A program made the translations under genes and the position numbers. The notes under the pieces were generated by a model. It was not told the DNA's origin, searched no databases, and saw nothing but the letters and a program-made list of their open reading frames with translations. 57,995 nucleotides of DNA from Nevskia soli (GTDB lineage Bacteria > Pseudomonadota > Gammaproteobacteria > Nevskiales > Nevskiaceae). The stretch lies in contig JAMFRN010000135.1 of assembly GCA_026224805.1 (NCBI GenBank), positions 1 to 57,995 on the forward strand. Reading direction: 5' to 3'. Below are positions 44,565-49,879 of the stretch, in pieces (position 1 is the first letter of the stretch; each line of letters opens with the position of its first letter).

Positions 44565-45863
44565 CTAGGCCGCGCTCGGCAAGGAATACAAGGGCACCGC
44601 CTCCGTAAACCCCTTTACCGCAATCGCCTCTCTTGCCTCCAGCGGCACCTCGCTCGCCAGCTCGCGGGTGCGCCCATCCACCAGGATCTCACCGTCCGCC
44701 GCCTGTTCGCACAGCCGCGAAGCCAGATTCACCGCCGGCCCCACGGCAGTGTATTCAAGCCGTGAAGCGGAGCCGATGACGCCGACGGTGACGAAGCCGC
44801 TGGCCACGCCGATGCCGATGCCGAGCCGGTGCTCGTCGCTGCTCCAGCGCTGCGTCACTTCGCGCGCCGCCTCGCGCACGCCGCGCGCAATGGCCAGGCC
44901 GACGGCGCCGTGGTTGGATATGGGAAGGGGTGCGCCGACCAGGATCAGGATGCCGTCGCCGGCGTAGTCCTTGATGGTGCCGCCATAGGCGGCGACCACT
45001 TCGCCCACGGCGTCGTAGTAATCCTGCAGCACCTGGATCACGCGCGAGGACGGATGCGCCTGGGCAAAGGCGGTGAAGCCGCGCACGTCGCTGACCACCA
45101 CGGTGATTTCTAGGTAATTCTGCTTCATCGCGCCGGATAGGCCGCGCTCGCGCACCAGCGTCGCCACCTGCGACGACAGGAAGCGCGACAGGAACTGCCC
45201 GCGCTGGCCCTGCAGGACGTGGTACTGCACCGAGCCGACCAGGAAGATCATCTCGCCGCACAGCACGGTGATCGAGGCGAATTCCACGCGCAGCACGAAG
45301 CCGGCCATGAAGAACGGCGTGGACAAGCCCAGGGCCAGAAGGCGCACGCGTTCGGCGCGGTCCGGGCGGCGGTTGAGCACCAGGGCGCCGGAGAACAGGC
45401 CGGTGCCGGCGGAAAACAGGATGGGCGCCGCGAACAGCCAGAAGCCGGGCTTGTACAGCACGCTGGCGTTGCTGACGGCGAACAGGAAATCGCGGGTGCG
45501 CTGTTCCGGGAAGCACAGCGACAGCACGCAGTACAGCACGGCCGCCAGCTGGCCGCAGCGCAGCACATAGTCGCCGAAGCGGACGTCGAGTTCGCCGGCC
45601 GGCAGGGTGCGCCGCACGCGCAGCACGAATTCCAGCACGGCAATCAGGGCAGCCGCTTCCGGCAGGGCCAGCCAGCCCGGCATCACGGCTTCGGGCGCCA
45701 TGTGAAACAGGAAGCCGGTATTGGCGCCGATGGCAATGCTGATGAATACCAGCGTCAGGGCCAGGGCGCGCGAGGTGGGCGAGCGGTAGTCGGCGGAGAT
45801 GAAGGACAAGGCCATGCCCAGCGCGACCAGCGCAACCATCACGGATGGAACAATGAAGGTCAT
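44565..45863 (-). CDS. Membrane-anchored class III adenylate/guanylate cyclase
   Basis: A 432-residue protein. The N-terminal half (about 1-210) contains six or so hydrophobic helices, including FIVPSVMVALVALGMALSF and LAAVLYCVLSLCF. The C-terminal half is a class III cyclase catalytic domain: VVVSDVRGFTAFAQAH (first metal Asp), IKDYAGDGILILVG (second metal Asp), IGIGVASGFVTVGVIGS and VGPAVNLASRLCEQA (Asn/Arg). Cyclic AMP production is more likely than cGMP but the specificity residues are not read. A CRP-type site at 21121 shows that a cAMP receptor could act nearby, but no link is demonstrated. Confidence 0.9.
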   Translation of the reverse strand: MTFIVPSVMVALVALGMALSFISADYRSPTSRALALTLVFISIAIGANTGFLFHMAPEAVMPGWLALPEAAALIAVLEFVLRVRRTLPAGELDVRFGDYVLRCGQLAAVLYCVLSLCFPEQRTRDFLFAVSNASVLYKPGFWLFAAPILFSAGTGLFSGALVLNRRPDRAERVRLLALGLSTPFFMAGFVLRVEFASITVLCGEMIFLVGSVQYHVLQGQRGQFLSRFLSSQVATLVRERGLSGAMKQNYLEITVVVSDVRGFTAFAQAHPSSRVIQVLQDYYDAVGEVVAAYGGTIKDYAGDGILILVGAPLPISNHGAVGLAIARGVREAAREVTQRWSSDEHRLGIGIGVASGFVTVGVIGSASRLEYTAVGPAVNLASRLCEQAADGEILVDGRTRELASEVPLEAREAIAVKGFTEAVPLYSLPSAA

Positions 45864-46411
45864 GCCTGGAAGCGGCCCGGCCGGCTGAAAGTGATGTCAC
45901 ATTATCCTAGAAATGGCCCCGCCAACGCGGGCCGCTGGGGCAGAGCCGGGCGCGCCCCCGGCCAGAGCGTCGCGAATGGCGCGGGGCGGCGGCGAAAACC
46001 TTTGCGTTTCCGCGAGTTAAAGCGAGGGAGGCGGCAGAGCCGCGCCGGGGGCCGCTGCGCGGGAACCTCCGCGGCTCCGGCCAATCCGTGCGGGGGCGGC
46101 GACGGCCCTGCATCGGCCCAGCGGCGGCGCCAGCAGGACCGACTGGTACGGCATGGCGGTTAGCACCCAGCTCCGGCCATGCACATTGGCCCGCAGGCCA
46201 CCGCCAGCGCATCAGACAGCCACTGTTTTCAAAATTACACCGCTTGTCGGGCAATAACTACCGTTGACGCGTCGTTCAGGTTTCGATTCTTCCGCTCGTC
46301 ACGTCTCGGCATACGCCCATCGGCAGCAATGCAGCGGCGGCGGCGAAGTGGGGTCTTCTATGCACCTCAGCCGCCATGCCCACAGCATTTGCGAAGGCAT
46401 CACATAACAAC
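45864..46411. other. Intergenic region of about 550 bases, no gene seen
   Basis: Between the divergent cyclase and MHYT genes. The 5' half is very GC-rich (45905-46180) and the 3' half (46210-46300) more AT-rich. Short open frames here lack ribosome-binding sites. It must carry the promoters; no palindrome or terminator stands out. Confidence 0.5.
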
Positions 46412-47701
46412 ATGAACGGAATTTACGATCTCACACTGGTCATCACGTCCTACTGCGTGGCGGCATTCGCCTCGTATGCGGCGCTGGACCTGGGCGGTCG
46501 TATCGCGTTTTTCGACGGCGCGCGCGAACGCATCTGGCTGATTGCCGGCGCGTTCGCCATGGGCACCGGCATCTGGGCCATGCATTTCGTCGGCATGAAA
46601 GCCTTCAGCCTGCCGGTGAAGATCACTTACGATCTGACCCTCACCGCCTTGTCCTGGCTCGCCGCCATCGGCGTTTCCCTGCTGGCCCTGTATATCATCA
46701 GCCGCAGCAAGCTGACCGCGGCCGGCATCGTCGGCGGGGCGCTGGTGATGGGCGCGGGCATCTGCCTGATGCACTACAGCGGCATGTGGGCGATGCGCAT
46801 GTCGCCGGGCATCAGCTACGACCCGCTGCTGATCGCCGCTTCCGCCGGCATCGCCGTACTGGCTTCCGCCGCAGCCCTGTTCATCTGCTTCTCGGTGCGG
46901 CAGTTGCCCGATGGGCGCGTGGTCCCGGCCAAGATCGTGGCGGCGCTGGTGATGGGCGCGGCCATCTGCGGCATGCACTACACCGGCATGGCCGCGGCGA
47001 ACTTCGCCGCCGGCGCGATATGCGCCCCCTCCAACCTGCTGGGCGGCAACTGGATGGGTCTGCCGGTGGCGCTGATCACCATCGGCCTGCTCGGTGCGAT
47101 CCTGCTGCTGTCGCTGATGGATGTGCGCGCACTGACCCACCGCCGCCGCACGGAGAAGTTGCGCGCCGAGTCCGAGCGGGTGCGCCGCCTGGCCTACTAC
47201 GACTCCGTCACCGAACTGCCCAACCGCAGCCTGTTCAACGAAACCCTGCTGCGGCAGCTGATCAACTCAAACGGCAAGACGCCGCCGCCGTTCGGCGTGG
47301 TCTACGGCGAGATCCGCGGCTACCGGATGCTGGTGGAGAAGCTCGGCCAGGACCGCGTCAACCTGATCATGCGGGCGCTGGCCAGCCAGCTGGCGCCGGC
47401 GCTGCGCGAGGGCGATGTGCTGGCGCGCCTGAGCCACGACGGCTTCATCTTCCTGCTGCGCGAGCGCGCAGACCGGGCCATCGAGGCGGCGCTGGCGCAG
47501 GTGGCCGCGCTGCTCAACGCCCCGGTGCACTACGACAACCAGTCGCTGCCGCTGACCTGGGGCATGGGTGCCAGCCGCTACCCGGAAAGCGGCAATTCGA
47601 CGCAGGCGCTGGTCCGCGCCGCGATGAAGCTGCAACGCGAAGTGGGCGCCGAGGCACGGCCCGCTCCGCAAAAAACTGTTTCTGCACTGGGTGCGGCCTG
47701 A
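46412..47701 (+). CDS. MHYT-domain sensor with degenerate GGDEF
   Basis: A 429-residue membrane protein. Seven hydrophobic helices carry three MHYT motifs: WAMHFVGMKAF, LMHYSGMWAMR and GMHYTGMAAANF (about residues 62, 122 and 200), the proposed metal-binding sensor for O2, CO or NO. A cytoplasmic GGDEF-like domain follows (YYDSVTELPNRSLFNETLL), but the active site reads LSHDGFIFLL instead of GGDEF, so it is unlikely to make c-di-GMP. It may be a sensor that binds GTP or works by contact. No EAL domain follows. The tandem structured repeats begin 27 bases after its stop. Confidence 0.87.
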   Translation: MNGIYDLTLVITSYCVAAFASYAALDLGGRIAFFDGARERIWLIAGAFAMGTGIWAMHFVGMKAFSLPVKITYDLTLTALSWLAAIGVSLLALYIISRSKLTAAGIVGGALVMGAGICLMHYSGMWAMRMSPGISYDPLLIAASAGIAVLASAAALFICFSVRQLPDGRVVPAKIVAALVMGAAICGMHYTGMAAANFAAGAICAPSNLLGGNWMGLPVALITIGLLGAILLLSLMDVRALTHRRRTEKLRAESERVRRLAYYDSVTELPNRSLFNETLLRQLINSNGKTPPPFGVVYGEIRGYRMLVEKLGQDRVNLIMRALASQLAPALREGDVLARLSHDGFIFLLRERADRAIEAALAQVAALLNAPVHYDNQSLPLTWGMGASRYPESGNSTQALVRAAMKLQREVGAEARPAPQKTVSALGAA

Positions 47702-47727
47702 GCGGCGCACCGTGCAACGGTCCTAAG

Positions 47728-48075
47728 AGCCTTGGGCTGCACAGAACGCTTCGGCGTCCCAGCAACCCGCTTTTCAGACCGCCCTGTTTAGCCCGGCGCG
47801 GAACGGTCCGCACCGGCACGGCCCTGAGCTTTGGGCTGCGAAGAACACTCCGGTGTTCCAGCAGCTCATTTTTTAGGCCGCACTGTTCAGCCCGTCGCGG
47901 AAGGTCCGCGTCGGCACGGCCCTGAGCCTTGGGCCGCGAAGAACACCTCACGGTGTTCCAGCGGCTCATTTTTTAGGCCGCACTGTTTAGCCCGTTGCGG
48001 AAGGTCCGCGGTGGCACGACCCTGAGCCTTGGGCCGCGAAGGACACCCCACGGTGTTCCAGCGGCCCATTTTTTT
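47728..48075 (+). repeat. Tandem array of about 3.6 structured ~99-bp repeats with terminator-like hairpins
   Basis: Units start at about 47728, 47827, 47925 and 48025 (98-100 bp period; the last is partial). Each has AGC(C/T)TTGGGC(T/C)GC, a two-part hairpin with inner stem GAACACC/GGTGTTC-like and outer stem GCYGC/GCRGC, a run of Ts, then (units 1-3) a GCGGA/TCCGC hairpin. Outer stems differ in step: GCTGC/GCAGC (47835-47865) against GCCGC/GCGGC (47933-47965 and 48033-48065). The hairpin-plus-T-run looks like an intrinsic terminator on the plus strand. The array lies between the convergent MHYT and KefB/C genes. Confidence 0.85.
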
Positions 48076-48097
48076 GCCCGGTGAACGCGGACGAGCG

Positions 48098-49879
48098 CTA
48101 AGTCGTGCTGGTTTCCTGACTTTCCATGTCCGCCTCGAACAACTGCTCCAGTTCCTTCGACGCTTCCTTGGCGGTCTGGATCAGCTGCTGCTCGTCGCGG
48201 TGGACGGCCTGCTGCTTGAGCAGGGTTTCCTGGTCGTGGCGGCGGAAGCGCTCGACGTCGCGGGCGATGCGGTCGTCCGCTTCGCCCAGGGCGCGCAGCA
48301 GGTCAGCGGTCATCTCCAGGCTGGAGCCGTAGGCACGGCGGATCACGTCGGTCACGCCCAGGTCCATCAGCTGCATGGTATGGGCGCGGTCGCGCGCCAC
48401 CGCGAAAATGCGCAGGTGCGGGAAGTTGCGCCGCACCATCTCGGTGATGCGCAGGGACTCCTCCACGTCGGCGATGGCCAGCACGAAGAAGCGCGCCTTG
48501 TCGGCCTTGGCCGCGCGCAGCACTTCCATGCGCCCCGCATCGCTGTAGAACACGGTGCTGCCGAACTGGCGCACGAAGTCGACATGCTGCCAGTTGCGCT
48601 CGAGCACGGTGTAGGGGATTTTCTTCAGGCGCAGCATGCGGCCGAAGATCTGGCCGAAGGGGCCGAAGCCGGCGATGATGATGTCGTTTTCCGGCGCGTC
48701 GATCTCGTCGAAGGGGCGGGTTTCCTCCGATGCGCTGCCGCCGAAACGCGCTACCAACGCGTACATCGGCGGCGTGGCGATCATCGACAGGGTCACCGAC
48801 ACCACCAGCGCATCGGCGGTGCGTTGGTCGAAGATGGCGGCGCTGCGCGCCATGGCGAACAGCACGAAGGCGAACTCGCCGCCCTGCGACAGGGCCACCG
48901 CCAGGGACCGCGACGAACCGGCGGACAGGCCGTAGCCGCGGCCGACCAGGTACAGCACCAGTACCTTGATGATCACCAGGATGGCCACGCCTTCCAGCAC
49001 CCGCACCGGGTCCTGGGCGATGAAGCCGATATTGGCCGACATGCCCACCGCCATGAAGAACAGGCCCAGCAGCAGGCCCTTGAACGGCTCGATGTCGGCC
49101 TGCAGCTCGTAGTGGTATTCCGAGTCGGCCAGCAGCATGCCAGCGAGGAAGGCGCCGAGCGAGGCGGACAGGCCCACCGCGCTCATGCCCAGGGCAGTGC
49201 CGGTGACGGTGAGCAGGGCGGCGGCGGTGAAGATCTCCGGCACCTGGGTGGCGGCGAGGATGCGCAGCACCGGCCGCAGCAGGTAACGTCCGAGGAACAC
49301 CACGAAGGCCAGCGCCGCCCCGGCCTTGACCGCCCCGACCCAGTAGGGCGTGCCGTTGTGCATCGCCGCCCCCTCGGAAGTCAGGAACGGCAGCAGGGCC
49401 AGGAAGGGAATCACCGCCAGATCCTGGAACAGCAGAATGGCGAAGGCGGCGCGGCCGTGGCGGTCGGTCAGCTCCTTGCGCTCGCCCAGCATCTGCAACA
49501 CGAAGGCGGTGGAGGACATGGACATGCCGAAGCCGATGACGATGGCCGCCGGCATGGACTGGTGATAGCGCCACAGCGACCAGCCCGCCAGCACCGTCGC
49601 GGTGAGCAGCACCTGCGCGCCGCCGAGGCCGAATACCGCCGAGCGCAGGCGCCACAGGCGGCTGGGCTGCAGCTCCAGGCCGATGACGAAGAGCAGCAGC
49701 ACTACGCCGAACTCGGAGAAGTTGAGAATTTCCTCGACCCGCGAGATCAGGCCCAGGCCCCAGGGGCCGATGGCAATGCCGGCCGCGAGATAGCCCAGCA
49801 CCGAGCCCAGGCCGAAGCGCTTGAACAGCGGCACCGCGATCACCGCGGCGAGGAGGAGCAGGGCAATGTCTGCGAGCAT
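48098..49879 (-). CDS. kefB: CPA2 family K+/H+ antiporter with TrkA-N domain (KefB/KefC-like)
   Basis: A 593-residue protein. Residues about 1-380 form 12-13 hydrophobic helices of the CPA2 fold (GLGSVLGYLAAGIAIGPWGLG, GIAVILLFVIGLEL-type block FGVVLLLFVIGLEL, LFQDLAVIPFLALLPF, LSQGGEFAFVLF). A regulatory TrkA-N domain follows with the nucleotide motif IIIAGFGPFGQIFGRMLR, where NAD(H) or glutathione adducts bind. The C-terminal helix has a charged tail. It extrudes K+ during electrophile stress. The kefB/kefC distinction is not certain. Confidence 0.85.
   Translation of the reverse strand: MLADIALLLLAAVIAVPLFKRFGLGSVLGYLAAGIAIGPWGLGLISRVEEILNFSEFGVVLLLFVIGLELQPSRLWRLRSAVFGLGGAQVLLTATVLAGWSLWRYHQSMPAAIVIGFGMSMSSTAFVLQMLGERKELTDRHGRAAFAILLFQDLAVIPFLALLPFLTSEGAAMHNGTPYWVGAVKAGAALAFVVFLGRYLLRPVLRILAATQVPEIFTAAALLTVTGTALGMSAVGLSASLGAFLAGMLLADSEYHYELQADIEPFKGLLLGLFFMAVGMSANIGFIAQDPVRVLEGVAILVIIKVLVLYLVGRGYGLSAGSSRSLAVALSQGGEFAFVLFAMARSAAIFDQRTADALVVSVTLSMIATPPMYALVARFGGSASEETRPFDEIDAPENDIIIAGFGPFGQIFGRMLRLKKIPYTVLERNWQHVDFVRQFGSTVFYSDAGRMEVLRAAKADKARFFVLAIADVEESLRITEMVRRNFPHLRIFAVARDRAHTMQLMDLGVTDVIRRAYGSSLEMTADLLRALGEADDRIARDVERFRRHDQETLLKQQAVHRDEQQLIQTAKEASKELEQLFEADMESQETSTT

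Follow-up and report, generated by a model that had tools for sequence, protein, structure and literature searches.

Tandem terminator-like hairpins with a conserved 11-nt leader separate convergent MHYT-GGDEF and kefB-type genes in Nevskia

The locus and its hairpin units

The window analyzed here is a contig of 57,995 nucleotides from Nevskia soli, part of a 4.0-Mb assembly that is 84% complete and consists of 267 contigs (genome G000 below). A nucleotide cyclase gene (Pfam Guanylate_cyc; positions 44565 to 45863, minus strand) precedes an MHYT-GGDEF gene of the diguanylate cyclase type (46376 to 47701, plus strand; Pfam MHYT, 3e-46, and GGDEF, 2.7e-20), whose predicted transcript runs into four hairpin units arranged in tandem at 47727 to 48075. 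Beyond them lies a convergent kefB-type antiporter gene (Pfam Na_H_Exchanger and TrkA_N; 48098 to 49879, minus strand). The array starts 25 bases past the end of the MHYT-GGDEF gene and ends 22 bases from the 3′ end of the kefB-type gene.

An initial annotation, made from the sequence of this DNA, had described a tandem structured repeat with a period of about 99 bp, and three approaches agree on it. Tandem Repeats Finder reports 3.5 copies of period 100 at 47727 to 48074 with 86% matches, a repeat search spaces the units by 99, 100, and 100 bp, and anchoring on the motif GAGCC spaces them by 99, 98, and 100 bp. The annotation had also given each of four consecutive units a two-tier hairpin and a run of Ts, which holds for three of them and needs correction for the unit at 47727. 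This first unit (47727 to 47774, plus strand) is a degenerate copy of the leader and main hairpin (hairpin A), with a broken stem and only four Ts, and it scores 32.6 bits with our covariance model, R1, versus 68 to 72 bits for units 2 to 4. We define the leader as the 11 bases that immediately precede the hairpin, CCCTGAGCCTT. In unit 2, a leader with one change from the invariant form (CCCTGAGCTTT; 47822 to 47832 by alignment) leads into a predicted hairpin A at 47832 to 47874 with outer arms GGGCTGC/GCAGCTC and a run of six Ts (67.8 bits). Unit 3 carries the invariant leader at 47920 to 47930 and hairpin A at 47930 to 47974, with arms GGGCCGC/GCGGCTC and again six Ts (72.0 bits). Unit 4, which adjoins kefB, has the invariant leader at 48020 to 48030 and hairpin A at 48030 to 48075, with arms GGGCCGC/GCGGCCC and seven Ts (71.9 bits); all of these features are on the plus strand. 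The paired change quoted in the annotation, GCTGC/GCAGC in the unit at 47826 versus GCCGC/GCGGC in the next two units, is correct. The window holds three good terminator-like hairpins and one relic.

Folding of the plus strand gave a z score of −5.3 for the unit at 48026 to 48075 (0 of 200 shuffles as low), −2.8 and −2.9 for the two middle units (4 and 0 of 200 shuffles, respectively), and a nonsignificant −0.9 for unit 1 (36 of 200). On the minus strand, the three units of full length have equally good folds (z scores of −3.5, −3.2, and −3.1), and therefore the strand cannot be read from folding energy alone. A simple terminator scan called nothing in the array; its limits (a loop of 3 to 8 bases and a T-run directly after the stem) rule out two-tier stems with an internal loop.

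Units 2 to 4 each contain a second hairpin (hairpin B) upstream of the main one, found with a script that searched ahead of each leader for the best arms of 10 pairs. On the plus strand, it lies at 47793 to 47816 before unit 2 (9 of 10 pairs), at 47892 to 47914 before unit 3 (9 of 10), and at 47992 to 48014 before unit 4 (10 of 10, three of them G-U). Arms with 9 or 10 of 10 pairs were present in 13 of 14 units, 9 to 13 bases before GAGCC; the best candidate of the relic unit has 8 of 10 pairs at another place and thus gauges the noise level. By eye, both G-U and C-A cells occur in hairpin B, pointing to neither strand, and only some single-copy genomes have such a hairpin, unrelated in sequence.

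Distribution of the element and history of the array

We searched for the element by combining a DNA search of 58 family genomes, a 17-mer search, and covariance model R1. The DNA search, with 12 candidates scored per genome, gave matches at an E value of 0.01 in 15 of 18 genus genomes. With R1, run under the stricter filters of Infernal on 98 candidates per genome, a full-score element (at least 56 bits) was found in 16 of the 18, each time at one locus. Genome G000 has three full copies plus the relic, G021 has four copies, G026 and G023 have three, and each of the other twelve genomes has one. Under the same stricter filters, none of 40 genomes from other genera of the family had a match at an E value of 0.01 (five weak matches fell between 0.01 and 0.06), and 369 genomes of the class yielded only the source genome and one weak match (G213; E value of 0.005). 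No Rfam family matched in the window at its gathering score, and none matched in 47650 to 48150 at E values up to 1. Our literature search, which covered titles and abstract openings and included Nevskia small RNAs, found no report of the element, although this leaves its absence from the literature unproven.

A dispersed repeat (REP, MITE, or similar) was rejected given the single full-score locus per genome. An origin in phages or plasmids was likewise rejected, with no match in 72,556 plasmid records and no exact match to a 19-base leader-plus-stem word in viral contigs. The earlier suggestion of a repeat still spreading by duplication holds in one respect, as units have multiplied at one site in one clade, and fails in another, as they are not dispersed.

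In most genomes, the element lies downstream of the GGDEF gene and points toward kefB. In G026, the array is beside the GGDEF gene, though kefB is on another contig next to other genes; in G014, kefB and the element are separated by another gene that by eye resembles an antiporter (L028:4787-6511); and in G020, G024, and G027, we found no GGDEF orthologue, yet the element is present. The element is thus tied to the locus rather than strictly to the GGDEF gene or to kefB. The three GGDEF-less genomes form one clade (100/100 in the kefB tree), in which the element lies between kefB and the cyclase gene and is, by eye, the best-conserved island of a poorly conserved spacer. G013 has both genes with a short gap between them and no element in that gap, and G022 has neither a close kefB nor the GGDEF gene, and no full-score element. 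Outside the genus, the cyclase gene directly follows kefB in three of seven loci (L027, L064, and L066, in contrast to L029, L065, L068, and L069), with neither the element nor a GGDEF gene between them. A comparison of 44565 to 49879 with L023 to L025, L027, L064, and L066 shows that the MHYT-GGDEF gene separates kefB from a cyclase gene, two genes that adjoin in some relatives outside the genus, and that it was not found in one clade of the genus. The GGDEF gene may have been gained or lost at one site, in which case G020, G024, and G027 either lost it or never gained it. Separately, two contigs titled as Verrucomicrobia and Rhodospirillales bacteria (L022, CAJCJI010000459.1, and L024, CAJCJH010000071.1, respectively) carry Nevskia-type kefB loci with 84% and 70% identity, and these record names look wrong.

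The four array genomes form one clade (100/99 in the kefB tree, a tree in which outgroup branches are long, weakly supported nodes place two outgroups within the genus, 7 of the 21 sequences are partial, and the root is open). The first units of G000 and G021 cluster together (0.994). Ahead of the leader, CGACCC is common to the last units of G000, G021, and G026, whose other units carry CGGCCC or CGGTCC; the array is therefore older than the splits among these three genomes. The units of G023 are 74 to 83% alike among themselves and 44 to 66% alike to other array units, which would fit either local homogenization or a separate expansion. Read in order toward kefB, the T-runs measure 4, 6, 6, 7 in one array, 4, 6, 6, 8 in another, and 5, 6, 7 and 6, 6, 8 in the remaining two, such that the kefB-proximal unit has the longest run in all four.

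A history consistent with these data is that a single tandem duplication event in the ancestor of the clade founded the array, and that the kefB-proximal unit would since have been kept as the best terminator while the GGDEF-proximal unit decayed in two species. We also considered whether an ordinary terminator was duplicated neutrally, with no meaning in the copy number. Such drift would account for the decay of unit 1 in G000 and G021, for the sufficiency of one copy in twelve genomes, and for the apparent local homogenization in G023. We nevertheless consider it doubtful, as three to four units are kept in all four species found in the clade despite differences of 20 to 35% from G000 at kefB fourfold sites, and as the clustering of first units places the array before the split of G000 and G021. 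In the initial annotation, four terminators in a row had seemed unusually redundant. This is fair for the four array species; twelve other genomes manage with a single copy, and so the redundancy is derived rather than required.

Base pairing, strand, and leader conservation

We aligned 25 units from 16 genomes, leaving out the relic at 47727, and assessed covariation in the stem. A 14-pair structure was paired in 89.3% of alignment cells, compared to 35 to 42% when partners were slid by one to three columns. Changes on both sides of a pair occurred in 24 cells, compared to a mean of 8.4 in shuffled alignments (0 of 500 as high) and 0 to 7 in slid ones; these figures are somewhat overstated, given the relatedness of the sequences, from which the structure itself was also derived, and units within one array are partly homogenized and not independent. 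Other measures were weaker: six pairs had such changes, versus 4.0 in shuffles (20 of 500 as high) and 5 with partners slid by one column, and the count of further pair types was not unusual (138 of 500 shuffles as high). The paired changes fall in different clades: two outer pairs switched from G-C to A-U (one pair in G024, the other in G017); C-G became U-A in three array units; and A-U became G-C in an eight-species group with single copies. The annotation had read the paired changes as a sign of selection on structure, and this is borne out, as selection on base pairing, across these genomes. The covariation confirms that the predicted hairpin stem is under selection for base pairing.

Two features bear on the strand. 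Among nine consensus pairs, 21 cells are G-U and 2 are C-A, and only on the plus strand does a T-run follow the hairpin; both point to RNA of the plus strand. Fold energies are similar on the two strands (means over 25 units of −22.3 for plus and −22.6 for minus, with plus lower in 11 of 25).

Of the 25 aligned units, 24 have an intact leader, and each of the 16 genomes has at least one such unit. By comparison, at fourfold sites of kefB with the first two codon bases conserved, 13 of 92 are invariant in the same genomes. If sites behaved alike, 11 of 11 invariant positions would arise by chance with a probability of about 4e-10, a rough value for a stretch that was picked after seeing the data. 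Judged by these comparisons, the leader is more strongly conserved than synonymous sites of kefB. In predicted folds of the 25 units, the first ten leader bases are wholly unpaired in 14 and partly engaged in a weak hairpin of two or three pairs in 11, and the last leader T can pair with an A before the T-run in 13.

To place this conservation in context, we took as controls the 16 predicted terminators in 800 kb of G016 that satisfied limits on energy and length and are not within frames of at least 200 codons. One rule was applied to all: a match in each of 12 relatives had to cover the last 10 leader bases plus 5 bases of the stem. By this rule the element was found in 12 of 12 relatives, in 10 of them nearly to its end, while the controls were found in 11, 8, 4, 4, 4, 3, 3, 1, and 1 relatives and seven of them in none. 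The control scoring 8 of 12 has a generic leader ending in an A-run, as in symmetric terminators, with 24 matching rows at several places per genome, and therefore says little about orthologous conservation. As 14 of the 16 controls keep their leader in four or fewer of the 12 relatives, conservation this wide is unusual among predicted terminators of the genus, and the best comparable case, which scored 11, looks sRNA-like.

The combination of strong sequence conservation with a conserved stem, and of multiple copies in one clade, could also be explained by a protein-binding site. In that case, the leader and hairpin would be recognized at the RNA or DNA level, and tandem copies would raise occupancy, for example as a sponge; fold energy alone would permit the minus strand or the DNA level. 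The strand-biased G-U changes instead favor RNA, no Rfam family matches even at E values up to 1, and the loops of the 25 folded units are variable by eye, with no common GGA as in CsrA/RsmA sponges. We regard a protein site as improbable, and nothing was found in favor of the RNA-binding-protein sink raised in the annotation.

Probable termination and a possible small RNA

Three of the four units in the window have the anatomy of an intrinsic terminator, in which a stable, GC-rich hairpin leads directly into a U-run on the same strand. Probably, a polymerase arriving from the GGDEF side would pause at the U-run and the hairpin would release the transcript, which would end before kefB; in the array clade, serial stops would lower readthrough into kefB. 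Ending the GGDEF transcript ahead of kefB would be the simplest function of the element and fits its anatomy. Like known intrinsic (Rho-independent) terminators, the element places a GC-rich hairpin and U-run at a gene end, facing a convergent gene. Unlike them, it has an invariant 11-nt leader and a genus-specific sequence at one locus, and it occurs three to four times in series.

The leader calls for a further explanation. In 3′-end-derived sRNAs, conservation beyond the stop codon, next to the terminator, may mark a seed, according to a review, which also describes SdhX as variable outside its short seed (PMC9438474). As in CpxQ and SdhX, the conserved stretch here lies past the stop codon beside a terminator (PMC9438474), and this seed-like stretch past the coding region is the trait that the element shares with the class. 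It differs from CpxQ and SdhX in being known from sequence alone and in being kept also without its parent gene. An hfq gene scored above the cutoff in all five genomes checked. We infer that a seed of this kind is the most economical explanation known to us for the conservation of the leader. The leader could accordingly be read as the base-pairing seed of an sRNA released from the transcript end, with tandem copies raising its dose or variety, a proposal we place just short of an even chance. A stable short RNA would then contain CCCUGAGCCUU, and the predicted RNA of 60 to 110 nt would begin near CCCUGAGCC. The invariant leader gives one argument for the reading of the array as a set of small RNAs, which the annotation had listed among its alternatives.

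We found no sigma-70-like promoter, the one promoter type scanned, on the strand of the element in the array region or at the three GGDEF-less loci. A single-pattern search for the leader complement near ATG in 18 genomes gave 57 matches, versus 33 control matches; at nine candidate target loci inspected, with the site itself read in eight cases, none was convincing, and the few recurring ones looked coding by eye. A further finding concerns leader-like sequences at other loci. The motif CCTGAGCCTTG lies directly before three unrelated terminators (G013:C101:10634-10674, G015:C3:238723-238767, and G024:C7:7593-7632; L100, L112, and L110, respectively), a placement that fits a terminator-associated motif as well as it fits an sRNA.

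These results bear on a simpler alternative, in which the hairpins would serve only to keep antisense transcription out of kefB and termination itself would account for the conserved leader, through upstream RNA contacts, pausing, or, in array units, an alternative UGAGCC/GGCUCA pairing, with no small RNA involved. The presence of the stem and U-run in all 12 single-copy genomes, the longest T-run in the kefB-proximal unit of all four arrays, the lack of a promoter or target match, and the leader-like motif at three other terminators would all be expected. Against it, none of 141 predicted terminators in the 800 kb of G016, many of which may be coding, has the leader (the element itself is outside those 800 kb), and the commonest enriched 7-mers upstream of them occur in only 4 or 5 of the 141. 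The weak leader conservation of 14 of the 16 control terminators also argues against termination as the sole role, as does the retention of the element in three genomes where no GGDEF gene leads into it. We judge this alternative a serious one, at somewhat less than an even chance. Termination combined with an sRNA and termination alone stand nearly even because of the missing promoter match, the missing target, and the motif at three terminators.

On balance, we favor, with moderate confidence, the interpretation that the element is the terminator of the GGDEF gene, with a leader that is possibly also the seed of an undescribed 3′-end-derived small RNA, amplified once and kept. That confidence applies to the whole explanation, with termination, seed, and single amplification included, and under it the array would consist of copies of an RNA element specific to the genus, which forms the 3′ end of the MHYT-GGDEF transcript and is made up of an invariant leader of 11 nt, a GC-rich hairpin in two tiers, and a U-run. 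In a bolder and rather unlikely version, the element would represent a new RNA family found throughout the genus. Its members would be sRNA modules that terminate themselves and carry an invariant seed of 11 nt; the module would be encoded as the 3′ end of a gene for a cyclic di-GMP enzyme, would persist without that gene, and would have expanded in one clade to a series of terminators, where partial readthrough would yield a ladder of RNAs with one to four seeds. Under that version, the presence of the same leader before three unrelated terminators would make the seed a portable part. If the leader is a seed, an undescribed sRNA would be linked to a cyclic di-GMP gene and an antiporter locus, and the genus would offer a natural copy-number series (1, 3, and 4) for serial leaky terminators setting sRNA dose. 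If the element is a terminator only, it would be a clear natural case of serially multiplied terminators kept across species.

Several other candidates were dropped from the family. Weak matches in G013:C101, G015:C3, G024:C7, G035:C79, and G213 place a string resembling TGAGCCTTG ahead of a different hairpin with its T-run. Those in G014:C20 and G024:C11 are plain hairpins, those in G036, G029, and G000:C28 look coding, and that in G023:C274 is a terminator preceded by AACCTTGAG. The match in G017:C56 was taken as a stop-codon coincidence, and G026:C237 (exact) and G014:C90 (one mismatch) have the 17-mer without a hairpin. A genome-wide repeat or uptake signal was rejected as well: TGAGCCTTG occurs six times in the 800 kb of G016, on both strands, compared to a Markov expectation of 3.5 and three occurrences of the reversed word.

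Multicopy sRNAs offer further comparisons. In Rhodobacter sphaeroides, the four sRNAs CcsR1 to CcsR4 are cotranscribed with a DUF1127 protein gene and excised by RNase E, and a Rho-independent terminator is described at the operon's 3′ end (PMC10253847); the Nevskia array instead has a terminator-like end for each unit, and its parent gene is another. In Listeria monocytogenes, LhrC1 to LhrC5 are five copies of 111 to 114 nt that act additively and use C-rich UCCC motifs to pair with Shine-Dalgarno regions (PMC6794450). The array units differ from these in having no promoter match, an unrelated sequence (by eye), and one C-rich block in the leader.

The control terminator that scored 11 of 12 belongs to a locus of its own interest (L170:5480-5600, corresponding to G016:C1:485480-485600). 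It resembles a terminator-ended RNA with multiple hairpins (fold z score of −4.7), has a CTCGCACCTTGCCCCC-like stretch before the terminator, and has a copy in the source genome at G000:C167:2087-2154. Its Rfam matches are below cutoffs, the best being RF02837, anti-hemB, at 15.9 bits. The locus is matched in 55 of 58 family genomes, at one to five places in each, and is probably an unannotated multicopy sRNA family.
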